Part shown: positions 5,183-63,674 of the stretch, piece after piece | Numbering within the stretch: the stretch's first letter is position 1 | Layout: every line of letters begins with the position of its first letter | Source: an uncultured Hyphomicrobiales bacterium | Lineage (GTDB): Bacteria; Pseudomonadota; Alphaproteobacteria; Rhizobiales; Xanthobacteraceae | DNA: 64,000 nucleotides | Assembly (NCBI GenBank): GCA_903878085.1 | Contig: CAIRGJ010000021.1 | Coordinates: 62,001-126,000 of the forward strand | Direction of reading: 5' to 3' | Notes under the pieces: model-generated | Told to the model about the DNA's origin: nothing | What the model saw: only the letters and a program-made list of their open reading frames with translations | The model's database searches: none | Program-made: the position numbers and the translations under genes

Positions 5183-6271
5183 GTGCCCAATAGTCATTCA
5201 AGCGTCGAAGTGGCCATCAAGGCCTTTGCCAAAGGCGAAATCGTGGTCGTCATGGACGACGACGACCGCGAGAACGAGGGCGATCTGTTCGTCGCCGCCT
5301 CGCTGTGCACGCCCGAGAAGATGGCGTTCATCATCCGCAATACTTCAGGGATAGTCTGCGCGCCGCTCGGCGGCGAACTCGCACGCAAGCTGCACCTCGA
5401 TCCGATGGTGGCGGAGAACGATGCGCCGCTCGGCACCGCCTTCACCGTCACCGTAGACGTCAAGCACGGCCTGTCCACCGGCATCTCGGCGGAAGAGCGC
5501 ACCAACACCGTGCGCGCGCTGGCCAATGACAACAGCGGCGCGTCCGATTTCGTACGCCCCGGCCATGTGTTTCCGCTGGTGGCGCGCGAAGGCGGCGTGC
5601 TGATGCGCTCGGGTCATACCGAGGCTTGCGTCGATCTCTGCCGTCTCGCCGGCCTGCCGCCGGTCGGCGTGCTGTCGGAGCTGATGAAAGACGACGGCAC
5701 CGTGATGCGCGGACCGGACGTCGCGGCCTTCGCCGAAAAACACAAGCTCGCGCAGGTGTCGATTGCCGATCTGATCGCTTATCGCCAGAGCCGCGACAAG
5801 CTGGTCGAACGGGTGTCCGAATTCCAATTGGCGTCCGACATCGGTATGCTCAAGGGCTACGCCTATGTCACGCCGTTCGATCGCGTGCATCACATGGCCT
5901 TCGTCTTTGGCGACCTCGGTGACGGCAAGAACGTGCCGGCGCGGCTGCATCGCGCCGACGTGATCGGCGACGTGTTCGGCGGCGCCAAAACCATCCGTGC
6001 CGCGCTGGCGCACTTCAAGTCGGCCGGCCGCGGCGTCATCGTTTATTTGCGCGACGGCACCGCCGGCGTGCCGGTGCTCGTCCATCAGGACAGCGATACC
6101 GGCACGGAAGCTGCGCGCACCAAGCAATGGCGCGAGATCGGCCTGGGCGCCCAAATCCTCAAGGATCTCGGCATTTCCTCGATCCGGCTGCTGTCGTCGA
6201 GCAAGCGCACCTATGTCGGGCTCGGCGGCTTCGGCATCGAAATCGCGGCGACCGAAACGCTGGACGGCTAG
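5183..6271 (+). CDS. ribB: RibBX: DHBP synthase fused to degenerate GTP cyclohydrolase II domain
   Basis: A 362-residue protein. Residues 1-200 are 3,4-dihydroxy-2-butanone-4-phosphate synthase: acidic MDDDDRENEGDL (24-35) and the RSGHTEA substrate motif (142-148). This domain makes the four-carbon unit of riboflavin from ribulose-5-phosphate. Residues 205-362 align with GTP cyclohydrolase II, but the three zinc cysteines are replaced (Asp259, Thr270, Arg272 by alignment with the intact enzyme at 59393). The second domain should therefore lack cyclohydrolase activity. Such RibBX fusions are known in Bradyrhizobium and relatives. The start is ATG at 5183. Confidence 0.9.
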   Translation: MPNSHSSVEVAIKAFAKGEIVVVMDDDDRENEGDLFVAASLCTPEKMAFIIRNTSGIVCAPLGGELARKLHLDPMVAENDAPLGTAFTVTVDVKHGLSTGISAEERTNTVRALANDNSGASDFVRPGHVFPLVAREGGVLMRSGHTEACVDLCRLAGLPPVGVLSELMKDDGTVMRGPDVAAFAEKHKLAQVSIADLIAYRQSRDKLVERVSEFQLASDIGMLKGYAYVTPFDRVHHMAFVFGDLGDGKNVPARLHRADVIGDVFGGAKTIRAALAHFKSAGRGVIVYLRDGTAGVPVLVHQDSDTGTEAARTKQWREIGLGAQILKDLGISSIRLLSSSKRTYVGLGGFGIEIAATETLDG

Positions 6272-49823: not shown

Positions 49824-51269
49824 TCAGCGATGCAGGCAGGCGTGTAGCCGGATCAGGCGGCGGCTCTGCGCCGGAATGGCGGTGCTGATTTGCTCACTGT
49901 GTGTTGCCGTCCAGCACGATAGCCAGAAGAAGCCGGCGCTCGGATCGACCACGAGCCGCGTCGGCGACAGGCCCGGCGCGACCAATACCGAGAGATAGGG
50001 CGAGGTCGAATTCCACGACAACCGGTTGAGGCTCGCGCCGATCCGTTGCGACGACACGAACAGCGGATTGCCAAGCGCCGGATCGGAATCCGAACCGGTC
50101 GCGAGCGCGCGTATCGCTGTTTTGTAATCGGTCCACGCGAGAACAAATTTCGCCGTCTCGACCGCGTGCACCAGCAGCGTCAGCACGAAAGCACCGGCGA
50201 TCAGCCGCGGGTTCATGGCTTTCTCAATTGCCGCCGCGACATTCGACAGGAACGGCAGCGGCGATCGCTGCCGGGCTGCGTCGTCCATCGCATGGATCGC
50301 GGCGGCGAGGCCGAAGGCGGGCGTTACGATCAGCAACACGGTGCGTAGATTGTAGCGGGCTTCGGCGAGCAGCGAGCGGTCGAACCAGAACCAATACACC
50401 GCAAGCAATAAGGCACAGGCCAGGACGGCACAGGCATAGGCGCTGCGTGGCGCTGCCCGCCGCAATAGGATCACCGCAATATCGAAACCGGCCAGCGCGG
50501 CCATCAACAGCACGAAGGCCGGTTCGGTGAGGTTGCCGATGTCGATAAATCTGTAAGCGGCCGCATCCAGGACGGGCGCGATAGTGTCGTCGGGCCTGAT
50601 CGTGAGCTTGACGATCAGCCAGATCGTCATCACGGCGGCAAGCGCGCCGACAATGCGAATGAAAGCCTGATCGCGCCAGCCGCGCAGGAATACCGCGAAC
50701 AGGATCGCGCCCGCGAGGACGATTGCGCCCTCATGCGTGAACACCAGAGCCAACAGCGCGGCGAACACGGTGGCCGTGCCGCGCATATTCTGCGGAGCGT
50801 GCAGACAGATGGCGAGCGCCGGCCAGAACAGCGCATGGGCCATCCACATTTCGGTCGGCGCGCCATAGACCAGCGGACACAGGCCCGCCGTCGACAGGCA
50901 GGCGGTGACGAAAATCACCCGATCTCTGCTGCGGTCGGCGGCAAAGGTCGCCACGAGGCCCAGCAACGGCGCCGCGAAGAAAAGCAGCCCATAAACCGCG
51001 ATGCCGGCTTGCGCGCTGCCGCTCAGGGCGACGACCGCCTCGGCCGGAATGTAGGCGTAGATATAGCTGAACAAGCGGCCCGAAATGTTGTGCCAGTGAA
51101 AGGCCCAGGCCTCCTGCACCGCGACCGCATAGGAAAAGAGCGAGCCGTCGCCGAACATCTGCAGGCCTGTTGAAAGGCCGATCAGGACGAATAGGATCGC
51201 GCTGCCGATGCCGGCGGCGACGGCAAGGCTGCGCAGCCGCCGCCACGCCGCGCTGTCGCCGGCGTCCAT
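49824..51269 (-). CDS. Polytopic membrane protein, GT-C-like, last in opgH operon
   Basis: A 481-residue inner-membrane protein with about ten hydrophobic helices and a periplasmic C-terminal part. There is no strong motif. Long loops with acidic residues between helices 1 and 2 fit lipid-linked-sugar glycosyltransferases of the GT-C fold. ATG at 51269 overlaps the stop codon of the preceding gene by one base, so it is coupled. Together with opgH and FkbM it could decorate a periplasmic glucan. The function cannot be fixed from sequence. Confidence 0.75.
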   Translation of the reverse strand: MDAGDSAAWRRLRSLAVAAGIGSAILFVLIGLSTGLQMFGDGSLFSYAVAVQEAWAFHWHNISGRLFSYIYAYIPAEAVVALSGSAQAGIAVYGLLFFAAPLLGLVATFAADRSRDRVIFVTACLSTAGLCPLVYGAPTEMWMAHALFWPALAICLHAPQNMRGTATVFAALLALVFTHEGAIVLAGAILFAVFLRGWRDQAFIRIVGALAAVMTIWLIVKLTIRPDDTIAPVLDAAAYRFIDIGNLTEPAFVLLMAALAGFDIAVILLRRAAPRSAYACAVLACALLLAVYWFWFDRSLLAEARYNLRTVLLIVTPAFGLAAAIHAMDDAARQRSPLPFLSNVAAAIEKAMNPRLIAGAFVLTLLVHAVETAKFVLAWTDYKTAIRALATGSDSDPALGNPLFVSSQRIGASLNRLSWNSTSPYLSVLVAPGLSPTRLVVDPSAGFFWLSCWTATHSEQISTAIPAQSRRLIRLHACLHR

Positions 51270-52555
51270 CACGTCCGCCGCGCCGCCAGCGCCACCGTGC
51301 CGGTCAACCCCGCGAGCACCGCCCAATAAGCGTAACGGAAATCTGTGCCTACGCCGACCGTGAAAAACGTCATCACGTAGATGACGGCCGCGCCACAGAT
51401 CCAAAACGCAAAGGCGCCGGCGGCTGTGTCGCGACGGCGCCACGCGAACAGACAGACGATGACATCCAGCAGCAGCCAGGTGCCGGTCCAAAATAGCGGT
51501 GTCGGCTTGAGCACGTCGTGAATGCTTTTAAGCGCCATCAGTCGCGGATTATTGGCGAAGATGATCTTGTCGTGGTCGTCGAGATCGCGCGTCCACATGG
51601 CCATGTTTTGGGAACCGGCGAGGAACGTCGCCATGAAGGTCATGCGGTGTTCGAGATAGGCGATAGGATGCTTTGCGATGGCATGCGCCCAGGCCTCCGT
51701 CAGTTCCGGCGAAGCGAAGCGCTTGTCGCGCTCAAGATGCGCCATCACGAACAGGCACGGCTGCTGCGTCCAGTAGACATCCCACGCCACCGGATTATAG
51801 CAGCCATCGGTGATCAGCTTGGCTTCGTCCCGCGTCCACGTTCCCGGGAACACGTTGTCCTTGGCAAAATGCGAGATGCCGCCGAGGTCGAACACCATGA
51901 TCGAATGCAACGGCTGCTGCCGCGTTGCGCCGAGCACGCCGTAGTAGACGAGCTGTACAAGGCCGAACAGCGCCAGCGCCGCGGGGACATACAGGATCGC
52001 CGCGCGCTTCCATTGGAAACGTGACGGCCAGAGGATGTACGCGGCGAGAATTGGCGCCGCGGCCAGCCCGTTCGGCCGCAGCAGCACGCCGAAGGCCAGC
52101 AGCGCGAGCGCAATGACCTGTACGGTTATGCGCAATTTCGCGCCGTGCCCAGCCGTCGCAAAAACCAATGCTGCCGCCAACAACCACGCGACCGCGAATA
52201 GGACATCGCGCCAGATGATGCCGACAAACACGAAGGCTGGCGGCGACAGCGCCAGCAACGGCAGTAATAGCGCCAGCAAGGGCGCCCGCCGCGCCACCGT
52301 CAGCGCCACGATGGCAAAGGTCAGCCAATACAGCGCCACGGTCAGCAGCAACAGGCTGCCCGGTCCCGGTGCAATCGGATCGACGAGGCGCCACAACACG
52401 ATCATAACCGGCGATTGCCAGTCGCCGTAGAAACCCTTGGCCATGTCCATGTAGATGTAGCGTGCGTCGAAGGTCATGACGCCGGGCCAGAACACCCACA
52501 GCGTCAGCGCGAAGCCCATGCCGCATAGCGCGGCGATCGGCAGCTTTGTGTGCAT
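51269..52555 (-). CDS. Polytopic membrane protein, GT-C-like
   Basis: A 428-residue inner-membrane protein with about ten helices. The first loop has TFDARYIYMDMAKG then GDWQSP, the Asp-rich early-loop pattern seen in GT-C and GtrII-like glycosyltransferases. The second half ends in four close helices. ATG 52555 lies four bases from the FkbM stop codon; ATG 52576 is possible. It lies between the FkbM methyltransferase and a second such membrane protein in one operon. Confidence 0.75.
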   Translation of the reverse strand: MHTKLPIAALCGMGFALTLWVFWPGVMTFDARYIYMDMAKGFYGDWQSPVMIVLWRLVDPIAPGPGSLLLLTVALYWLTFAIVALTVARRAPLLALLLPLLALSPPAFVFVGIIWRDVLFAVAWLLAAALVFATAGHGAKLRITVQVIALALLAFGVLLRPNGLAAAPILAAYILWPSRFQWKRAAILYVPAALALFGLVQLVYYGVLGATRQQPLHSIMVFDLGGISHFAKDNVFPGTWTRDEAKLITDGCYNPVAWDVYWTQQPCLFVMAHLERDKRFASPELTEAWAHAIAKHPIAYLEHRMTFMATFLAGSQNMAMWTRDLDDHDKIIFANNPRLMALKSIHDVLKPTPLFWTGTWLLLDVIVCLFAWRRRDTAAGAFAFWICGAAVIYVMTFFTVGVGTDFRYAYWAVLAGLTGTVALAARRT

Positions 52556-52559
52556 GGTG

Positions 52560-53306
52560 TCATCCCAGCCGGGCATAGATATCCCCGGAGTTGGCCTCGG
52601 GCGGCAGCGCGTCGAGCCAACGCAGTAGGGCGGCGGCAGCGATCCAATCGCTGTGCTCGAACGTCTGGCTCTCTCCCAGCACCGCATTGAAACGCGCATA
52701 GCCTAGCGCATGACAGCGGTTGACGCAGGCGCGCGCAATATCGCGCTGGATCAGCGTGAACTCGAAGGACAGCGCCGGAACGGGCTGGGACAGGCCACCC
52801 AGCGCCTCGGCCTCGAAGCCCTCGACGTCAATCTTGATAAAAGACGGCGCGCCACGTTGCGCGATCAAGGCATCGATGGTGGTCAGCGGCACGCGCACAC
52901 GCTTGCCCCAGTTTTGGCCTTGCCATCCCGGCGCGCCCGCCGCGGCGGCGATGAAATCCGCCGACGCGGTCGAGACCGTCGGATTGTCGATGTTGAGCCT
53001 CAAGTCGATGTCGCCCGGCGTCCGCCCGACCGCGGCGGCCTCGATCGCCACCTTGGCGTCGCGGCCGTAGAGCAGCCGCAGCGTCTTGGCCAACGCCGGC
53101 TGCGGTTCGACGGCGACGACTCGTGCGCCCAGCCGCCGGAACGCGGCGACGCGGTCGCCGACATGGGCGCCGATGTCGAATACCAGATCGCCGGGCCGCA
53201 CGAACTGCGCATAGAGCCGGTCCATGGCCGGGCCGTGCCGGCGGTTGCCGTAGTAGATGCGCAGCGAGCGGAGAATTCCACGGACCGTTCTGAGCGCATC
53301 CAGCAT
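52560..53306 (-). CDS. FkbM-family methyltransferase
   Basis: A 248-residue SAM-dependent enzyme. Motif I VFDIGAHVGDR (near residue 42), VEPQP at the end of strand 2, and IKIDVEGFEAE (near 158) are all characteristic of FkbM, which O-methylates sugars and polyketides. It starts six bases after opgH on the same strand. Methylation of glucan or lipid-linked sugar is the obvious inference, since osmoregulated glucans often carry non-sugar substituents. Confidence 0.87.
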   Translation of the reverse strand: MLDALRTVRGILRSLRIYYGNRRHGPAMDRLYAQFVRPGDLVFDIGAHVGDRVAAFRRLGARVVAVEPQPALAKTLRLLYGRDAKVAIEAAAVGRTPGDIDLRLNIDNPTVSTASADFIAAAAGAPGWQGQNWGKRVRVPLTTIDALIAQRGAPSFIKIDVEGFEAEALGGLSQPVPALSFEFTLIQRDIARACVNRCHALGYARFNAVLGESQTFEHSDWIAAAALLRWLDALPPEANSGDIYARLG

Positions 53307-55209: not shown

Positions 55210-56193
55210 GTGTCAGATCGATCGACCCAGGCACTTTGGTATATCGGGCCAGGCCGCGCTGAAATTCGCGACGAGCAGGTCGTTGCGCCGCTTCCGGGCG
55301 AGGTCCGGGTGCGCGCGCTGCACAGCGCCATCAGCCGCGGCACCGAACGCCTGGTGCTGGCCGGTCGCGTGCCGCCCAGTGAATTCGAGCGCATGCGCGC
55401 GCCGTTCATGGCTGGCGCGTTCCCGTTTCCGGTCAAATATGGCTACGCCGTGGTCGGCCGGGTCGAGCAGGGACCGGCCGAACTGCAAGGCCGTACGGTG
55501 TTCGCGCTGCATCCGCATCAGAGCGTCTTCAATGTGCCTGCCGTGGCGGTGGCGCCGGTCCCCGATGGCGTGCCGCCGGCGCGTGCGGTGCTTGCCGCCA
55601 ATACGGAGACCGCGCTCAATGCCGTGTGGGACGCGGCACCCGGACCTGCCGACCGGATCGCGGTGGTCGGCGCCGGTGTCGTCGGCGCGCTGGTCGCCTA
55701 TCTGTGCGGACGGATTCCCGGCACTCAAGTGACATTGGTCGATGTCGAACCGTCGCGTGCGGAATTAGCGCGCGCCCTCGGTGTTAGCTTTGCGGCGCCC
55801 GATGCGGCGGCACGCGATTGCGATCTCGTCGTCCACGCCAGCGGCGCGGCCGCCGGTTTAGCCACCGCGCTCGGTCTGGCCGGTGAGGAGGCGACGGTGC
55901 TGGAGATGAGCTGGTATGGCACGGACGACGTCGCCGTGCCGTTGGGCGCGGCGTTCCACAGCCGCCGCCTGAAGTTGATATCGAGCCAGGTCGGCAAGGT
56001 CTCAGCCTCGCACCGTGCGCGCTGGAGTCATGCGCGCAGGCTCGCCGCCGCGCTCGATCTGCTGGCCGATCCGAAGCTTGACGCGCTGTTGGCGCCGGCC
56101 ATCAAATTTCACGATCTTCCGGCGCGGCTTCCCGGTATGCTGTCACCTGCTAGCGGCGTGCTGTGCCAGCTTGTGACTTACCCTGACGCTTGA
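55210..56193 (+). CDS. BchC-like zinc-less MDR dehydrogenase
   Basis: A 327-residue medium-chain dehydrogenase fold. The N-terminal GroES-like part has the SRGTERLVLAGRVP and FPFPVKYGYAVVG blocks seen in BchC-like enzymes. The Rossmann site is VVGAGVVGALVA (near residue 155), with Asp after strand 2 favouring NAD. The structural-zinc Cys cluster and catalytic Cys of alcohol dehydrogenases are absent. GTG at 55210 is chosen; the upstream frame overlaps opgH. It is first in a tight four-gene run with a pterin-synthase homologue, so oxidation of a ring or sugar side chain is likely. Confidence 0.8.
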   Translation: MSDRSTQALWYIGPGRAEIRDEQVVAPLPGEVRVRALHSAISRGTERLVLAGRVPPSEFERMRAPFMAGAFPFPVKYGYAVVGRVEQGPAELQGRTVFALHPHQSVFNVPAVAVAPVPDGVPPARAVLAANTETALNAVWDAAPGPADRIAVVGAGVVGALVAYLCGRIPGTQVTLVDVEPSRAELARALGVSFAAPDAAARDCDLVVHASGAAAGLATALGLAGEEATVLEMSWYGTDDVAVPLGAAFHSRRLKLISSQVGKVSASHRARWSHARRLAAALDLLADPKLDALLAPAIKFHDLPARLPGMLSPASGVLCQLVTYPDA

Positions 56194-56203
56194 GAGGTTT
56201 CCC

Positions 56204-56605
56204 TTGTTCGCCGTCGAAGTTCGCGACCACATCATGATTGCCCATTCGTTTCGCGGCACCGTGTTCGGCCCGGCGCAGGCGCTGCACGGCGCGACCTTCG
56301 TCATCGACGCCGCCTTCATGGCCGAGACGCTCGATGAGAACGGCATCGTCATCGACATCGGCCGCGCCCATGAGGCGCTGAAAGCAACGCTCGCGCCGCT
56401 GAATTATTCCAATCTCGACGCGGTGCCTGATTTCAAAGGCAAGAACACCACCACCGAATTCCTGACCAAGCACATTTACGACAAACTCGCCGAGGCCGCG
56501 CGCGCCGGCTCATTTGGCCGCGACGGCCACGAACTCAAATCGATCCGCATCACGCTGTCGGAATCGCATGTTGCGCGCGCCTGGTACGAGGCGCCCTTGT
56601 GGTGA
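56204..56605 (+). CDS. 6-pyruvoyl-tetrahydropterin-synthase/QueD homologue with altered active site
   Basis: A 133-residue T-fold protein. Zinc ligands His14 and His28 are conserved, but the second His of the HGH pair is Ala30. The catalytic Cys aligns with Ala24, and the Asp-His pair of LDH is Asn67-Tyr68. A Glu near the C-terminus (LSESHVARAW) is retained as the pterin anchor. So binding of a pterin or pyrimidine may persist, but normal QueD/PTPS chemistry should not. The start is TTG 56204, preceded by GAGAGG. It overlaps the next gene by four bases. Confidence 0.85.
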   Translation: MFAVEVRDHIMIAHSFRGTVFGPAQALHGATFVIDAAFMAETLDENGIVIDIGRAHEALKATLAPLNYSNLDAVPDFKGKNTTTEFLTKHIYDKLAEAARAGSFGRDGHELKSIRITLSESHVARAWYEAPLW

Positions 56606-57651
56606 GGCGTTTCGCCTTCGCGGTGCCGGGCGATCTCGCAACCCCGACCGGCGGCTATGCCTACGACCGGCGCATGATCGCGGAGCTTGAGCGGCTGGGC
56701 TGGCAAGTCGATGTCGTCGATCTGGGCGATGGGTTTCCCTGGCCAAGCGATCAGACGCGTGCGCGGGCGTGGGGGCGATTATCCGACATCCCGCCCGGCC
56801 GTACAATTGTCATTGATGGACTGGCCTTCGGTGTCTTGCCTGAGGCCGTGCTTCAGCTTCGCGTGGAAAATCCGCTGATCGCCTTGGTGCATCATCCGCT
56901 TGCGTTGGAGGCCGGACTTTCGATGCAGCAAGCCAATATCCTGCGCAGCTGCGAGCGTGCGGCGCTCACCGCGGCGCGGCTTGTCATTGCCAACAGTGCG
57001 GAGACCGCCCGACACCTGACGAGCGATTATGCTGTGGCTGCCGATCGCATCGCGATTGCATGCCCCGGGACCGATCTGGCGCCGATGGCGCAGGGCAGCA
57101 GCGACGGCATTGTTCGATTGATCTCGGTCGGCGCACTGGTGCCGCGCAAGGGCTTTGACGTGTTGGTTGCGGCGCTGGCGACGCTTGCCGAATTGCCATG
57201 GCATCTGACCATCGCCGGCGATGCTGGCCGCGACCGCGGCACCGCCGCGCGGCTTGCTGCCGATATCGCGGGCTTGAACCTTACGGACCGAGTCACGGTC
57301 ACGGGCGCGGTGCCGCCAGAGTGGCTGTCCGAACTCTATACAAGCGCCGATGCGTTCGTGCTGGCCTCGCGCTTTGAAGGCTATGGCATGGCGTTTTCCG
57401 AAGCCATCGCCCGTGGCCTGCCGGTGGTCGGCACCACCGCCGGCGCCATTCCCGAAACCGTGCCGAAAGGGGCGGGGCTGCTAGTGCCGCCGGACGATGC
57501 CGCCGCGCTGGCGGCGGCGCTGCGCCAAGTCATCGAACATCCTGGCGAACGGCAGCGCATGGCCGGCGCCGCACGCGCCGCGGCGCACAGCCTTCCCACC
57601 TGGCAGGACTCCGCGAAATTGTTCGCACGCGCCATCGAGGCCGTGGCATGA
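56602..57651 (+). CDS. Glycosyltransferase family 4
   Basis: A 349-residue GT-B enzyme. The donor domain has VGALVPRKGFDVL (near residue 175) and the EGYGMAFSEAIARGLPVV motif (about 256-274) with the E-x7-E pair typical of GT4; these bind a nucleotide sugar. No membrane segment is seen. GTG at 56602 (or 56599) overlaps the stop codon of the PTPS-like gene. Its fixed place beside pterin/flavin genes suggests it glycosylates a small heterocycle, as pterin glycosyltransferases of cyanobacteria do, rather than a polysaccharide. Confidence 0.85.
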   Translation: MRRFAFAVPGDLATPTGGYAYDRRMIAELERLGWQVDVVDLGDGFPWPSDQTRARAWGRLSDIPPGRTIVIDGLAFGVLPEAVLQLRVENPLIALVHHPLALEAGLSMQQANILRSCERAALTAARLVIANSAETARHLTSDYAVAADRIAIACPGTDLAPMAQGSSDGIVRLISVGALVPRKGFDVLVAALATLAELPWHLTIAGDAGRDRGTAARLAADIAGLNLTDRVTVTGAVPPEWLSELYTSADAFVLASRFEGYGMAFSEAIARGLPVVGTTAGAIPETVPKGAGLLVPPDDAAALAAALRQVIEHPGERQRMAGAARAAAHSLPTWQDSAKLFARAIEAVA

Positions 57652-58457
57652 CGGGCTTCTCCGCCGACTGGCTGGCCTTGCGCGAGCCTTACGATCTCCG
57701 TGCGCGCAATCCAGCGGTTCTCGACGCGGTCGTCGCCTCGCTCGCCGGCAATAATCAAATCCGCATCGTCGATCTTGCCTGCGGTACCGGCTCGACGATG
57801 CGCGCGCTGGCGCCGCGTTTCCCAGCCGCGCAGAACTGGCGGCTCGCCGACAACGATCTCAGCCTGTTGGCGCGCGCGTCCGGCATGGCGCGGCCCCTGC
57901 GCGTCACGGTGACGACGACGCCGATCGATCTCAATCACGATCTCGAAGCCGCGCTCGACGGCCCGGTCGATTTGGTCACCACCTCGGCGCTGCTCGATCT
58001 CGTCTCCGAAGCGTGGCTCGACCGGCTTGCGGTCGAGACGCTGGCGCGCGGGATTCCGCTGTATGCGGCTTTGAGCTATGACGGCCGCATCGAGATCGCG
58101 CCGTCGCACCAGCGCGATGCGGCGATTATCGCCGCGGTCAATAAACATCAGCGCGGCAACAAAGGCTTCGGCCCCGCGCTCGGGCCGGAAGCGGCGAAAG
58201 CCTGCATCGCGCGGTTCGAGCAGCTTGGTTGCTCGGTCGTGCATGGCGCGTCCGATTGGGCCGCCGGCCCGACCGAGCGCGAATTTCAGATCGAGATTTT
58301 TTCCGGCTGGGCCAGCGCTGCGCGCGACACCGGCGATCTGCCGCTGCCGGACATCGTCGAGTGGCTGACGTTTCGCCGCGACCAGGTCGCCGCCGGGCGC
58401 TCGTCACTCCGCGTCGGTCATGTCGATATTTTTGCACGTCCCACCGGCACGCGCTGA
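57648..58457 (+). CDS. Class I SAM-dependent methyltransferase
   Basis: A 269-residue soluble protein with SAM motif I VDLACGTGSTMRAL (near residue 41), a following acidic loop, and a Rossmann core. The C-terminal part holds REFQIEIFSGW with few family matches. ATG at 57648 overlaps the glycosyltransferase stop codon (ATGA). It is the fourth gene of the plus-strand run, and its 3' end overlaps the convergent RibD-like gene by 40 bases. Methylation of the glycosylated product is the natural guess. Confidence 0.82.
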   Translation: MTGFSADWLALREPYDLRARNPAVLDAVVASLAGNNQIRIVDLACGTGSTMRALAPRFPAAQNWRLADNDLSLLARASGMARPLRVTVTTTPIDLNHDLEAALDGPVDLVTTSALLDLVSEAWLDRLAVETLARGIPLYAALSYDGRIEIAPSHQRDAAIIAAVNKHQRGNKGFGPALGPEAAKACIARFEQLGCSVVHGASDWAAGPTEREFQIEIFSGWASAARDTGDLPLPDIVEWLTFRRDQVAAGRSSLRVGHVDIFARPTGTR

Positions 58458-59242
58458 GCCGACAGGTCGCAATCGAACAAGGTCTCGCCGTCGAGGCGAA
58501 ACGTCCGCATCGGCACCCGTAGCGCCTGGTCGGCGCGTTCGACCGGCGGCAGGATGAAGCTGGCGCGGCCGCTGCCGAGGATGATCGGCGCCACCATCAC
58601 ATGCAGGCGGTCGAGACAACCGGCGGCAAGAAAGCGCGACACGGTGTCGGCGCCGCCCTCGATCAGGATGCGCCGCAAGCCGCGTTCGGCCAGGCTGGCG
58701 AGGACGTCGTGCGGCGCGATATGCCCGCCCTCTAGCGGCAAGGCGACGATCTCGACACCGGCGGGCGGGGCGCAGCGCGTGTCTGCGGCCGTCACCACCA
58801 GACGGCGCACGCCATCGGCTGCAAATATTTTTGCGCTGCCCGCAAGCCGCCCCTTGGGGTCGAGCACGACGCGCGCCGGGTGCGGGCCTTCGCACCGACG
58901 CACCGTGAGCTGCGGATCGTCGGCGATGGCCGTGCCGACGCCGACCACCACGGCATCGACCAGCGCGCGTAGCCGGTGCAGATGCTCGATCCCCGCCGGA
59001 CCATTGATGTAATGGGAGTGCCCGGTTTCAGTGGCGATCCGGCCGTCGAGCGACTGGCCGATCTGGCCGATCACGACCAGATCGTCGACCGCGCCGGTTC
59101 GCAGCGGCGCGAACAAGTCGGCCCACGGCGGCGGTAAAGCTTGAACCGGATCGCGAAAAGCCCGCGCGAATGCGGCCCAACTCCCGGCGGTGGTGTCCGG
59201 CCCAGCCTCGCCGACGGGCCCATATGGCGGCTTCAACGGCAC
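58418..59242 (-). CDS. RibD-reductase-domain protein (no deaminase domain)
   Basis: A 274-residue protein. The C-terminal RibD-like reductase fold is clear: IGQSLDGRIA (near 60), RALVDAVVVGVGTAIADDPQLTV across about 90-115, ILIEGGADTVS (near 195). The deaminase domain of full RibD is absent, and the first 55 residues are unrelated. Alone, this domain reduces the ribosyl side chain of 2,5-diamino-6-ribosylaminopyrimidinone phosphate, as in archaeal riboflavin synthesis. It converges on and overlaps the methyltransferase gene, and stands between it and ribA. Confidence 0.82.
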   Translation of the reverse strand: MPLKPPYGPVGEAGPDTTAGSWAAFARAFRDPVQALPPPWADLFAPLRTGAVDDLVVIGQIGQSLDGRIATETGHSHYINGPAGIEHLHRLRALVDAVVVGVGTAIADDPQLTVRRCEGPHPARVVLDPKGRLAGSAKIFAADGVRRLVVTAADTRCAPPAGVEIVALPLEGGHIAPHDVLASLAERGLRRILIEGGADTVSRFLAAGCLDRLHVMVAPIILGSGRASFILPPVERADQALRVPMRTFRLDGETLFDCDLSAQRVPVGRAKIST

Positions 59243-59392
59243 AAGCTTGCCTTCATAGAAACGATTTTGCTTTCAATAAGCTGGCACAAAACAATCGCTC
59301 GCGCGACCGGAATGGCCAGGGGGCTCGCGGTGTTCTACAATTGAAGCCCATGGCAAAAGCGCCATCGGACGTCCGCTGGGAAAATTCACTAC

Positions 59393-60541
59393 ATGAGTTC
59401 GGTCGGTAAAGTTTCCGCTTTGTTCGGCACCAAGGGACAAACCGGCGTCAATCGCGGCGTCGCGGAGTTTCACGCCCGCCGCCCGGTGCTGGTCACGGGC
59501 GCGGGCGAAACAATGCTGGCCTTGCCGGTCGAGGGTCTCGACGCGCAACGGCTCGCCGAATTCATTGCGCTCTGTGCGCCGGTGCGGCCGCGGCTCGTCG
59601 TCACCGCGCGCCGCGCGCATGCGCTCGGGCTCGACGCCACGTCGCCGATGGCCTTGCAGCTTGCGCCCGACATCGGCGTGGCTGCGATCCTGGCGCTAGT
59701 CGCCGATGCCAAGGTCGAATGCGCGGTTGAAGCAAAGCCCGCCGGCGAAGCGGCCGCCGCGGCCATCGAACTGGTGAAATTGTCGCAAGGCCTGCCCGCG
59801 GTGCTGGTGGCCGATGCCGCCGCGTCGCTCGCAACCGAGCACATGATCGTCACCGTCGAAGCCAAGGCCGTTACCCAGTTCGGCGATGAAGCGATCCGCA
59901 CGCTGACCATCGCCAGCAAGGCCTTCGTGCCGCTCGACTCCGGGCGCCGCGCGCGCTTTGTCGTGTTTCGCGACGCCATGGGCGGCAGCCCGGTCGCCAT
60001 CATTGTCGGCAAGCCGGATTATGCCAAGCCGGTTCTGGTGCGGCTGCACTCGGCCTGTCTCACCGGCGACGTGTTCGGTTCGCGGCGTTGCGACTGCGGC
60101 GATCAGCTCGATCTGGCGATCAAGCGCATCGAGGAGATCGGCGGCGGCATCGTCTTGTACCTCGCGCAGGAAGGCCGTGGCCTCGGCCTCGCCAACAAGA
60201 TGCGCACCTATCAGATGCAGGACGACGGTCTCGACACGGTCGACGCCAACACCACGCTCGGCTTCGATGACGACGAACGCGACTACGGCATCGCCGCCCG
60301 CATGTTGCAGATGCTCGATTGCCACCGTGTCGTGCTGCTGACGAACAACCCGGCCAAGCTCGACGGCCTTGCCGAATACGGTATCGAGATCACGGCGCGC
60401 ATGCCCATCGAGGCGCCGGTCAACGCCGACAACCGTCGCTATCTGACGGCGAAGGCGGCGCGGGCGGGGCACCGGCTCGATCATTTGGTGACGTCGCTGG
60501 CGGATTCGTCCGACGCCGACATCGCGCCGCTGGCGCCGTGA
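59393..60541 (+). CDS. ribA: GTP cyclohydrolase II with N-terminal extension
   Basis: A 382-residue protein. Residues 180-370 are a complete GTP cyclohydrolase II with zinc ligands Cys222, Cys233 and Cys235 (CLTGDVFGSRRCDCG) and the RGLGLANKMRTYQ motif. It opens GTP to the pyrimidine precursor of riboflavin. About 175 N-terminal residues are extra and resemble a RibB-like or regulatory domain without the DHBP-synthase motifs. Because the RibBX at 5183 has lost its zinc Cys, this gene should supply the cell's cyclohydrolase II. The start is ATG 59393. Confidence 0.93.
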   Translation: MSSVGKVSALFGTKGQTGVNRGVAEFHARRPVLVTGAGETMLALPVEGLDAQRLAEFIALCAPVRPRLVVTARRAHALGLDATSPMALQLAPDIGVAAILALVADAKVECAVEAKPAGEAAAAAIELVKLSQGLPAVLVADAAASLATEHMIVTVEAKAVTQFGDEAIRTLTIASKAFVPLDSGRRARFVVFRDAMGGSPVAIIVGKPDYAKPVLVRLHSACLTGDVFGSRRCDCGDQLDLAIKRIEEIGGGIVLYLAQEGRGLGLANKMRTYQMQDDGLDTVDANTTLGFDDDERDYGIAARMLQMLDCHRVVLLTNNPAKLDGLAEYGIEITARMPIEAPVNADNRRYLTAKAARAGHRLDHLVTSLADSSDADIAPLAP

Positions 60542-60543
60542 CC

Positions 60544-61326
60544 ATGGCAAACGCCGGTGCGGCTCGGCTGATCGGCGAGCTGACGTTCCAGGAGATTTCA
60601 CAGCGCCTCAGCGCGACGTCGATTCTGTGTCTGCCGATCGGCTCGATCGAACAGCACGGACCGCATCTGCCGCTCAACACCGATGTCGTCTTGGCCGAGG
60701 GCGTCACCCGCCAGATCGTGGCGCGGTGGGGCGAGGCGCTCGATCTGTGGCAGTTGCCGACCATATCGATCAGCCTGGCGCGCGAGCACGACTGGGCGCC
60801 CGGCACGCTGTCGCTGTCGATCGCCGGCATGACGGCCTATATGCGCGATCTCGGCCGCGAAATTTCTCGTTCGCTGCTGGCCCGCAACCTGATGATCGTC
60901 AATGGCCACGGCGGCAACCGCGGCATTCTCGAAGCGCTGGCGCAGGAGTTGCGCGCCGACTTCGGCCTCAACATCTGTATCCTGCATCCCGCCGCCTTGG
61001 CCGACACCAAGGCGGATTCCGCCGCGCCCGAAATTCACGGCGGCAAGAACGAAACGTCGATGATGCTGGCGGTCGCGCCGCATCTGGTGCGCCGCGAAGC
61101 CATCGCCGCGTTGAAAAATCCGCCGGACGGCGACGCCATCCGCAAGACGATCCTGCAACGCGGCGTCACCTGGCCCTGGACGAGCGATGAGAAGGGCCTC
61201 GCCGACACCGGCGTCATCGGCGATCCCAAGGCCGCGTCGGCGGAATTCGGCCAAGTCATCGTCGATCGTGCCGTCGAGATGGCGGGGGCGGTGCTCAAGC
61301 AGCTTTTAGAACGGCGGCACGGCTAA
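60544..61326 (+). CDS. Creatininase-family hydrolase
   Basis: A 260-residue metal-dependent amidohydrolase. Metal-site motifs: IEQHGPHLPLNTD (Glu36, His38, Asp47), NGHGGN (near residue 120), and IHGGKNETS (near 160). The family includes creatininase, ArfB (formamide hydrolase of archaeal riboflavin/F420 synthesis), and inosose hydrolases. Placed 2 bases after ribA, it is most simply a formamidopyrimidine or heterocycle hydrolase of the same pathway. ATG 60544 follows the ribA stop codon directly. Confidence 0.87.
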   Translation: MANAGAARLIGELTFQEISQRLSATSILCLPIGSIEQHGPHLPLNTDVVLAEGVTRQIVARWGEALDLWQLPTISISLAREHDWAPGTLSLSIAGMTAYMRDLGREISRSLLARNLMIVNGHGGNRGILEALAQELRADFGLNICILHPAALADTKADSAAPEIHGGKNETSMMLAVAPHLVRREAIAALKNPPDGDAIRKTILQRGVTWPWTSDEKGLADTGVIGDPKAASAEFGQVIVDRAVEMAGAVLKQLLERRHG

Positions 61327-61440
61327 ATCGCCTGTCGATTCATAGGCCTAGCCCGGCGAGCACGCGCTATACGGGCTTCTAATCGGCCGGGAAAGTGCCT
61401 ATACAGACCGCATTCCGCACTTATGCGGCCGGGAATACCC

Positions 61441-62022
61441 ATGGCGCTTCCTCTCATTGTCGGCATCAGCGGCGCATCCGGCGCCATCTACGGCGTCCGG
61501 CTGCTCGAGGCGCTGCGCCAGGCCAAGGTGCCGTCGCATCTGGTGGTGTCCAAGTCCGCCGCGCTGACGCTCAAGGCCGAGCTGGACATGACCGTCAATC
61601 AGGTCCGCGACCTGGCGGACGTGACTTATTCCAACGGCGACGTCGGCGCCGCGGTGTCGAGCGGCTCGTTCAAGACGCTGGGCATGGTGATCGTGCCGTG
61701 CTCGATCCGCACCGTCTCCGACATCGCCTACGGCACCACCGATACGCTGCTCAGCCGCGCCGCCGACGTCGTGCTCAAGGAGCGCCGCCGCCTCGTTCTC
61801 GTGGTGCGTGAGACGCCGCTGCATGCCGGGCATTTGCGCACGCTGACGGCCGCCACCGAAAACGGCGCCATCATCATGCCGCCGATGCCGGCTTTCTATC
61901 ATCGCCCCAAGACCATCGACGACATCGTCAATCAGACCGTCGGCCGCTGCCTCGATTTGTTCGATATCGACAGCGGCCTGGTCAAGCGTTGGAACCCCGA
62001 CGCCGCAGAAGAGAAAGACTAA
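61441..62022 (+). CDS. ubiX: Flavin prenyltransferase UbiX
   Basis: A 193-residue flavoprotein of the UbiX/Pad1 family. SGASGAIYG near residue 11, VVSKSAALTL and a central SSGSF region match. It attaches dimethylallyl phosphate to FMN and makes the prenylated flavin cofactor for UbiD decarboxylases. ATG 61441 is preferred over 61423. Its TAA stop overlaps the UbiD start by one base, so the cofactor maker and user are coupled. The adjacent ribA gene would help provide FMN. Confidence 0.93.
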   Translation: MALPLIVGISGASGAIYGVRLLEALRQAKVPSHLVVSKSAALTLKAELDMTVNQVRDLADVTYSNGDVGAAVSSGSFKTLGMVIVPCSIRTVSDIAYGTTDTLLSRAADVVLKERRRLVLVVRETPLHAGHLRTLTAATENGAIIMPPMPAFYHRPKTIDDIVNQTVGRCLDLFDIDSGLVKRWNPDAAEEKD

Positions 62023-63674
62023 TGACCGACGCGCCGCGTACCTATCCCGACCTGCACGAACACCTCGCCGAACTCGACAGACGCGGCCTGCTGCGCACCA
62101 TCGACACGCCGATCGACAAAGATTCGGAAATGCATCCGCTGGTGCGCTGGCAATTCGTCGGCGGCGTCGCCGAGGCCGAGCGCAAGGCATTTTTGTTCAC
62201 CAACATCACCGACGGCCTGGGCCGTAAATACAACATCCCGGTCGTGGTCGGCGCCATCGCCGCCAATCCGGCGATCTACAGCGTCGGCATGCGCGCCGAG
62301 CTGTCGGACATCCAGGCGAAATGGGATCACGCCATCGCCAACCCGGTCGAGCCGCGGCTGGTCAATGACGCGGTGTGCCATGAGGTCGTGATCGAAGGCG
62401 ACGCCATCAAGGGCGAGGGCAACGGCCTCGACATGCTGCCGATCCCGATTTCGACGCCGGGCTTCGACTCAGCGCCGACACTGACCGCGACCAACGTCAT
62501 CACCCGCGATCCGGAAACCGGCATCCAGAACATGGGCACGTATCGTGCTGCGCTCAAAGCGCCGGACCGTCTGGTGGTGCGCATGGCGACGCGGGTCGGC
62601 GGCGCCGGCGGCTATCAGCATTATCTGAAATACCAGAAGCGCGGCGAGCCGATGCCTTGCGCCATCGTGCTCGGCTGTCCGCCTTATGTCGCCTTCATGG
62701 GCCCGCAGAAGCTTCCGATTGGCGTCGACGAGTTGACAGTCGCGGGCGGTCTGGCCGGCGGCCCGATCAACATCACGCGCGGCCGCACCGTCGATCTCTT
62801 GATCCCGGCGGAATCCGAAATCGTCATCGAAGGCCTGATCGACACCGAATATCTCGAGCCGGAAGCGCCGTTCGGCGAATCCCACGGCCACGTCGCGCTC
62901 GAAGAGTTCAACATGCCGATGCGGGTCACCGCGATCACGCATCGCAAGAAGCCGGTCATTCCGTCCTACATCAGCCAGGTGGCGCCGAGCGAATCCAGCG
63001 TCATCAAGCGCGTCGCCTATGAGCCGTTGTTCACCTCGCACTTACGCAATACGCTCGGTATTCGCGGCGTCAAGAAAGTGTCGCTGCACGAGCCGCTGAC
63101 CGGGCTGCTGCGCGTCACCGTCATCACGCTGGAGAAGGGCACGCCGCGCACCGAAATCTGGCGCGCGCTGCAGGGCGCCGCGTTCTTCAAGGGCGATTGC
63201 GGCAAGATCTGCATCGCGGTCAACGACGACATCGACGTCGACAATGCCGACTCGCTGCTGTGGGCGATGGCCTATCGCATGAACCCGGTCGAGGACGTGC
63301 AGTTGGTGCCGCATCGCGGCCAGGGTCATGGCCCCAAGCGCGAGCACGACAACGAAGAAGACTCCACGATGCTGATGGACGCCACCATGAAGGGCGACAT
63401 GCCGCCTCTGGCGCTGCCGAAGCAAGAATACATGGAGCGCGCCAAGGCAATCTGGCAGAAGCTCGACCTCGGGCCGTTGCGCCCGCAGTCGCCGTGGTTC
63501 GGCTACTCGCTCGGCGACTGGTTGCCGCAATGGGACGAGGCGGCCAAGCGCGCCGCGCAAGGCAAGTACCTCGAGAACGGCAAGATCAGCGCCAAGCAAT
63601 TGCGCAAAGGCATCAAGCCGGAAACCAAGTTCCGGCCGGACGAAGACAAGCCCAAGGGCAACGGCAAGGCTTAA
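62022..63674 (+). CDS. UbiD-family prenyl-FMN-dependent decarboxylase
   Basis: A 550-residue enzyme. Landmarks are NVITRDPETGIQNMGTYR across about 165-183 (the Arg contacting the cofactor), the Glu-rich APFGESHGH block (near 285), and a long insert after residue 430. UbiD of ubiquinone synthesis is about 490 residues, so this longer protein belongs rather to the aromatic or phenol/benzoate carboxylase branch. The extra N- and C-terminal segments fit that. Reversible decarboxylation of an aromatic or heteroaromatic acid is expected. It is the last gene of the plus-strand block that starts at ribA or ubiX. Confidence 0.9.
   Translation: MTDAPRTYPDLHEHLAELDRRGLLRTIDTPIDKDSEMHPLVRWQFVGGVAEAERKAFLFTNITDGLGRKYNIPVVVGAIAANPAIYSVGMRAELSDIQAKWDHAIANPVEPRLVNDAVCHEVVIEGDAIKGEGNGLDMLPIPISTPGFDSAPTLTATNVITRDPETGIQNMGTYRAALKAPDRLVVRMATRVGGAGGYQHYLKYQKRGEPMPCAIVLGCPPYVAFMGPQKLPIGVDELTVAGGLAGGPINITRGRTVDLLIPAESEIVIEGLIDTEYLEPEAPFGESHGHVALEEFNMPMRVTAITHRKKPVIPSYISQVAPSESSVIKRVAYEPLFTSHLRNTLGIRGVKKVSLHEPLTGLLRVTVITLEKGTPRTEIWRALQGAAFFKGDCGKICIAVNDDIDVDNADSLLWAMAYRMNPVEDVQLVPHRGQGHGPKREHDNEEDSTMLMDATMKGDMPPLALPKQEYMERAKAIWQKLDLGPLRPQSPWFGYSLGDWLPQWDEAAKRAAQGKYLENGKISAKQLRKGIKPETKFRPDEDKPKGNGKA

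Follow-up and report, generated by a model that had tools for sequence, protein, structure and literature searches.

What do the genes at positions 55210 to 61326 of this DNA make together, and do they form one pathway? The window, i.e. the whole 64,000-nucleotide stretch analysed (positions 62,001 to 126,000 of the forward strand of contig CAIRGJ010000021.1, assembly GCA_903878085.1, from an uncultured Hyphomicrobiales bacterium), carries there a BchC-like dehydrogenase, a PTPS-like T-fold protein, a GT4 glycosyltransferase, a class I methyltransferase, a RibD C-terminal-type reductase (RibD_C), a GTP cyclohydrolase II (RibA) and a creatininase-family amidohydrolase. A preliminary description had taken these seven genes for a candidate pathway to a glycosylated, methylated pterin- or flavin-like metabolite. 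All seven are present, and the open reading frames (ORFs) and the Pfam and NCBIfam searches agree with the families named. An eighth gene, missed by that description, belongs to the cluster and encodes an MdoH-like membrane glycosyltransferase of the GT2 family. The cluster is common to Alpha-, Beta- and Gammaproteobacteria and Actinomycetota. As judged from sequence comparison, its enzymes may convert GTP to a modified 2-amino-4-oxo-pyrimidine or pteridine, add sugar and methyl groups to it and deliver the product to the envelope, a reading to which we give slightly less than an even chance. No description of the cluster was found in the literature searched, which mostly left subscription papers outside.

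Linkage of the genes across phyla

A profile of the PTPS-like protein detected the gene in 27 of 398 genomes drawn evenly from the Pseudomonadota, the present genome included. Neighbours were counted within 6.5 kb at loci where the PTPS-like gene is flanked on each side by 6 kb or more, and short flanks excluded 2 of these 27 loci, 28 of 80 loci from named genomes and 2 of 6 from relatives. The 25 loci of the phylum draw that were retained hold the dehydrogenase in 25 cases, GT4 in 25, the methyltransferase in 23, RibD_C in 22, RibA in 11, the creatininase in 7 and a cytochrome b561 in 7. The scan of named genomes returned at least 551 relatives. Only the best 80 were retained, a set in which close relatives are too frequent and Roseibium is abundant; its 52 loci with full flanks contain the dehydrogenase (49), the glycosyltransferase (52), the methyltransferase (51), the MdoH-like gene (47), RibD_C (29) and RibA (23). 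When three locus pairs with identical PTPS-like proteins are each counted once, the PTPS-like gene, GT4 and either the dehydrogenase or the methyltransferase occur together in 119 of 123 distinct loci, all 123 having been collected for holding the PTPS-like gene. The arrangement is not due to chance.

Plasmids also carry these genes. The PTPS-like protein matches 21 plasmid records, including a Natronorubrum record with a match of just 30.6%, and 13 of these loci were examined. The set, or most of it, is found on plasmids of Streptomyces (L106, L136), Microbacterium (L110), Thiodictyon (L109), Methylosinus (L108), Rhizobium (L111), Neorhizobium, Agrobacterium (L138), Palleronia and a Rhodobacteraceae strain, and three genes of the set are on an Arthrobacter plasmid (L135). 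RibD_C was not found at the Streptomyces locus L106. On the Streptomyces plasmids L107 and L112 the PTPS-like gene lies near genes for a metallo-β-lactamase-fold protein, a cupin and a BTAD regulator, possibly a second use of the family. A phage or mobile origin of the cluster was rejected: the protein found no match in 50,697 phage records, and the plasmid matches are the 21 given above.

Gene order varies among the loci, and RibA, dehydrogenase, PTPS-like protein, methyltransferase and RibD form a single same-strand run in L134 and L118. Conservation of the neighbourhood in relatives, the check that the preliminary description had suggested, was thus observed across phyla and in altered gene orders.

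Within the genus, 24 genomes were compared, several of them incomplete drafts, with presence of the cluster judged by the methyltransferase (6 of 24 positive). The PTPS-like gene is present in 6/6 genomes with the cluster and 0/18 without it, and the same division holds for a strong second RibD_C (at least 130 bits; 6/6 versus 0/18). A strong GTP cyclohydrolase II (above 175 bits) occurs in 6/6 versus 1/18 (Fisher p 5e-5, relatedness not corrected). Distance correlations between the PTPS-like protein and the other gene products (r of 0.58-0.95, permutation maxima up to 0.41) are uncorrected for species descent and carry little weight.

The PTPS-like protein and the pyrimidine enzymes

Residues were counted in 126 PTPS-like sequences (123 distinct), leaving out translations with internal stops and matches of less than 60% coverage. 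The position of the catalytic Cys is Ala in 126/126, as is that of the third zinc ligand, His30, while His14 and His28 are kept in all 126. Glu120 and Glu85 are likewise kept in 126/126 and the Thr/Ser-Glu pair is retained; Glu120 we take to be the residue that anchors the 2-amino-4-oxo-pyrimidine ring in PTPS and QueD. Public plasmid records (L106, L108-L112 and others) label the protein 6-carboxytetrahydropterin synthase and thereby assign it to queuosine synthesis despite its missing catalytic residues. Because the catalytic Cys and the third zinc His are Ala throughout, the protein is, by its residues, not a QueD despite this annotation. A queuosine or 7-deazapurine branch, to which the label and the PTPS superfamily membership would point, is contradicted by the same two losses and by the score of the QueD model on the window protein (38.3 bits versus a cut-off of 89.25); we accord it almost no probability. 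Given the retained residues, binding of a 2-amino-4-oxo-pyrimidine ring is instead a good possibility.

Among solved structures, the family is closest to Streptomyces coelicolor SCO6650 (PDB 3d7j, E 4e-52), and the Streptomyces plasmids L106 and L136 carry the gene set. SCO6650 is said to have neither zinc nor PTPS activity, and its authors reportedly reached a conclusion much like the one given here, namely no QueD and perhaps binding of a 2-amino-4-oxo-pyrimidine. Confirmation of the pathway would provide a function for this orphan family, whose structure is solved, and for a gene cluster found in both Pseudomonadota and Actinomycetota.

The RibA of the window has an intact active site (C54/C65/C67, Y105 and R128 in E. 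coli numbering), as the preliminary description had stated. Across 50 cluster RibAs the zinc cysteines and Arg128 are present in 50/50 and Tyr105 in 48/50, the two with Met in its place being the two Streptomyces copies. SCO6655 reportedly releases a formylated pyrimidine through such a Tyr to Met change; the window enzyme keeps Tyr. The creatininase gene is present at both Streptomyces loci, which would fit a deformylase role. Retention of a formyl group by RibA was rejected as an explanation of the creatininase everywhere, since that gene is near 18 of the 50 cluster RibAs, 16 of them of the Tyr type, versus only two with the Tyr to Met change. SCO6655 is listed as a GTP cyclohydrolase II (PMC2853524).

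The N-terminal half of the window RibA was missed by sequence models, and structure prediction gives it a fold like that of 3,4-dihydroxy-2-butanone 4-phosphate (DHBP) synthase (predicted local distance difference test score, pLDDT, 87.8; Foldseek matches to RibB at E 3e-5 and weaker). In this model the protein looks like a decayed RibBA.

For RibD_C, Pfam matched the reductase domain only, in line with the earlier description of a RibD reductase without deaminase, and the closest solved sequences are ribosylaminopyrimidinone-phosphate reductases (6p8c, 2azn). A second RibD_C match in this genome lies in a longer frame (G000:C23); the cluster gene is an additional copy in a genome that has a full RibD.

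The creatininase-family protein matches creatininase structures (E ~1e-17). Archaeal-type riboflavin synthesis begins with GTP cyclohydrolase III, followed by the ArfB deformylase and by reduction before deamination. The cluster resembles this route in its creatininase-family hydrolase and its stand-alone RibD-type reductase but has a bacterial-type GTP cyclohydrolase II, and the creatininase scores far below the ArfB cut-off, with 27.9 bits versus 180 (NF033501), so that it was rejected as ArfB. An assignment to the mycofactocin protein MftE (TIGR03964), the top NCBIfam score of the creatininase, was also rejected at 120.9 bits versus 172.

The GTP cyclohydrolase genes of this genome bear on a housekeeping explanation, in which RibA (and RibD_C) restore riboflavin synthesis where the cyclohydrolase half of RibBA is dead, and the remaining genes are an unrelated envelope operon. 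The window RibBA (5183-6271) has a GTP cyclohydrolase II half without any zinc cysteine (RibBX-like; cf. 6mnz), and the same was seen in 8 other genus members inspected. A third PF00925 protein of the genome (G000:C14, L155 915-2228), which is easily taken for RibA, matches 7ej3/7eev (E 4e-174), entries titled UTP cyclohydrolase. This leaves the cluster RibA as the sole intact GTP cyclohydrolase II found in this genome, which supports the housekeeping explanation and weakens the argument that RibA is an extra copy. Against this explanation, a strong GTP cyclohydrolase II is missing from 17 of 18 genus members that lack the cluster, and a RibD match is still present in 16 of those 17 (residues inspected in 6/17); moreover, RibD_C duplicates the reductase of the full RibD, and the linkage spans phyla. 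We consider the housekeeping explanation improbable.

Membrane partners and the proposed pathway

Of 110 distinct loci, 83 have an MdoH-like gene divergent from the dehydrogenase within 1 kb, and 14 have a gene for a CDP-alcohol phosphatidyltransferase in that place (86 and 14 before removal of repeats). In four locus sets, the two were never both found within 5 kb of the PTPS-like gene. The window MdoH-like protein scores above the cut-offs of NCBIfam PRK05454.2-1 and 2-5 and below those of its best-scoring model, 2-6 (678.7 versus 884), and of six other MdoH models. Of 16 phosphatidyltransferase sequences extracted, the 8 that were aligned all show the motif D-x2-D-G-x2-A-R-x8-G-x3-D-x3-D, which we take to be that of CDP-alcohol phosphatidyltransferases. 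Loci of the phosphatidyltransferase type frequently have an LPG-synthase-TM, flippase-like protein close by. NdvA-type exporters with at least 45% identity occur in 21 distinct loci, a count that leaves out early matches at 26-34% identity resembling generic ATP-binding cassette (ABC) proteins; the NdvA of L046 exceeds the glucan-exporter cut-off (832.4 versus 733 bits). At a further locus, L019 (G024:C2), a distant methyltransferase relative directly precedes an NdvA-like exporter near a RibA-like match, with no PTPS-like gene in the 14 kb.

The MdoH-like and NdvA genes recall osmoregulated periplasmic glucan synthesis (MdoG/MdoH, NdvA), NdvA being present in betaproteobacteria and some alphaproteobacteria. 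The systems differ in that this genome (G000) has no match to MdoG (PF04349), and in that another, G027, has two such proteins: an MdoH encoded away from the cluster next to MdoG, 34% identical to the window protein, and a cluster-type MdoH-like protein at 43%.

These counts of MdoH-like and NdvA genes favour the strongest rival, an envelope glucan or glycolipid cluster. In this alternative the MdoH-like, GT4, FkbM and NdvA proteins (or the phosphatidyltransferase with the flippase-like protein) would make a glycan or glycolipid, the PTPS-like protein, dehydrogenase and methyltransferase would make or modify something other than a pteridine, namely a sugar or a head group, and RibA and RibD would be neighbours for another reason. 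The relatives of GT4, which include PimB, PimA and WaaG, point the same way. So does a search of genomes without RibD_C at the locus: 31 full-flank loci lack it, and of the 26 genomes searched genome-wide (5 plasmid records left out), 17 lack both a cluster-type RibD_C and any match to the window RibA (E 1e-12). Another 6 of the 26 (G055, G453, G455-G458) carry a cluster-type copy elsewhere, with RibA adjoining it in G455, G456 and G458. The glycan or glycolipid alternative does not account for RibD_C near 22 and RibA near 11 of the 25 phylum-draw loci, for the same-strand runs with the PTPS-like gene, or for the anchoring Glu in every PTPS-like sequence, and L118 and L137 hold dehydrogenase, PTPS-like protein, methyltransferase and RibD with no glycosyltransferase found alongside. 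We judge it unlikely, at somewhat better than one chance in four.

In the pteridine pathway that we prefer, for which we infer each reaction, the order and the product, RibA would open GTP to a diamino-ribosylamino-pyrimidinone phosphate. The two Streptomyces RibA copies would perhaps give the formylated form, which a creatininase-type amidohydrolase would then deformylate. Next, RibD_C would generate a ribityl side chain, and the 2-amino group would stay because there is no deaminase. The zinc-less PTPS-like protein would bind the ring via Glu120 and cyclise or rearrange it, and the dehydrogenase, methyltransferase and GT4 would decorate the resulting compound. Depending on the lineage, the MdoH-like glucan synthase, or the CDP-alcohol phosphatidyltransferase with the flippase-like protein, would extend or anchor the product, which NdvA-type ABC exporters would move in some lineages. 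Should the product indeed be a substrate of these membrane enzymes, a single pathway would link pteridine chemistry to the synthesis of envelope glycans or lipids. A more specific proposal, which we hold to be a long shot, is that the product is an envelope-bound redox cofactor: a glycosylated, methylated ribityl-pteridine, flavin-like but with the 2-amino group kept, which would be fixed to a glucan or a phospholipid head group depending on the lineage and would in part of the lineages work with the cytochrome b561 encoded nearby.

Several observations weigh against the pteridine pathway. The 17 genomes with neither enzyme (14 of them Roseibium/Labrenzia) keep the dehydrogenase, PTPS-like, glycosyltransferase and methyltransferase genes or most of them, and the pathway would still require a GTP-opened precursor there. 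Being the only intact enzyme found in this genome, the cluster RibA may serve riboflavin synthesis, or also feed it. The GT4, methyltransferase and dehydrogenase folds do not indicate a substrate: the methyltransferase model (pLDDT 95.8) retrieved class I methyltransferases of mixed substrates in Foldseek. The glycosyltransferase missing beside the PTPS-like gene in L118 and L137 also counts here, as does the lack of a methyltransferase found beside it in L120 and L139, and L107 and L112 hold the PTPS-like gene without the rest of the cluster. The alternation of membrane partners is imperfect too, since L129 and L113 carry the phosphatidyltransferase plus an MdoH-like gene 5.03 kb (L129) and 7.7 kb (L113) from the PTPS-like gene, and 6 of 27 draw loci have neither membrane enzyme within 5 kb.

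Taken as a whole, the earlier interpretation is partly supported. Gene linkage and the anchor residues of the PTPS-like protein speak for a pterin- or flavin-related pathway; action of GT4 on a pterin is not supported, its profile retrieving Tll1590, MshA-type and PimB structures first, and the joint product stays conjectural. Because the membrane partners are an MdoH-like protein, a CDP-alcohol phosphatidyltransferase and NdvA, sugar transfer may end on a glucan or a lipid, the case that the preliminary description named as its refutation.

Two groups of sugar-bearing metabolites invite comparison. Mycofactocin is an oligoglucosylated, methylated redox cofactor, and the cluster shares with it the logic of a small redox molecule, a sugar chain and a methyl group, together with the high score of the creatininase for MftE, although that score is below cut-off. 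Glycosides of the cyanopterin and limipterin type, products of pteridine glycosyltransferases, derive from GTP cyclohydrolase I pterins, without GTP cyclohydrolase II, RibD or MdoH. In contrast, the cluster has GTP cyclohydrolase II, RibD_C and an MdoH-like protein. Glycosylated pterins as such are known from bacteria (PMC13259868), cyanopterin and limipterin being those of cyanobacteria and Chlorobium.

Architecture of the locus in the window

The genes and their coordinates are given in Table 1. The earlier picture of one overlapping run holds for the PTPS-like gene, GT4 and the methyltransferase, with overlaps of 7 bases (PTPS/GT4) and 4 bases (GT4/methyltransferase), and fails for the dehydrogenase, which is separated from the PTPS-like gene by 10 bases. 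Of the three genes said to face this run only RibD_C does so, converging with the methyltransferase gene in a 40-base overlap; RibA and the creatininase share the strand of the run. The start of the MdoH-like gene, about 100 bases from the dehydrogenase, was estimated from homologues, as the open frame extends to 55436. The dehydrogenase was rejected as BchC (TIGR01202, 49.3 bits versus 291.25).

Table 1 Genes of the cluster and of its left flank in the window.
Feature	Positions	Strand	Evidence and remarks
Membrane-type protein of unknown family, adjoins FkbM gene	51269..52699	-	ORF; no Pfam match at E 0.01
FkbM-type methyltransferase	52560..53306	-	Pfam Methyltransf_21 E 2e-16
MdoH-like membrane GT2 (beta-glucan synthase family)	53313..~55106	-	NCBIfam MdoH models, GT2 Pfam; divergent from dehydrogenase
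BchC-like medium-chain (MDR) dehydrogenase	55210..56193, GTG start	+	ORF; bchC model weak
PTPS-like T-fold protein	56204..56605	+	Pfam E 6.8e-22; catalytic Cys lost, HGH to HGA, Glu120 kept
GT4 glycosyltransferase	56599..57651	+	Pfam/NCBIfam searches
Class I S-adenosylmethionine (SAM) methyltransferase, poorly described family	57648..58457	+	Weak Methyltransf_25, 28.2 bits versus 27
RibD C-terminal-type reductase (RibD_C), no deaminase	58418..59242	-	Pfam RibD_C E 2.5e-40
GTP cyclohydrolase II (RibA), DHBP-synthase-like N-terminal half	59393..60541	+	Pfam; active-site residues; model
Creatininase-family amidohydrolase	60544..61326, ATG start	+	Pfam E 5.8e-55

Of the 25 phylum-draw loci 7, and of the 52 named loci 14, have an FkbM-type methyltransferase gene close to the PTPS-like gene. 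The membrane-type ORF beyond it flanks the cluster on the outside in some close relatives, with the same neighbour seen at 13 loci. At gathering scores, an Rfam scan of the window returned one tRNA and no RNA switch at the cluster. A defence function was rejected, PADLOC having given one weak methyltransferase match only. Directly downstream of the cluster, at 61423-63674, lie two putatively UbiX-like and UbiD-like ORFs. Among 128 fetched loci (E 1e-20), and apart from the locus itself, both recur only in L012, with UbiD also in L021.

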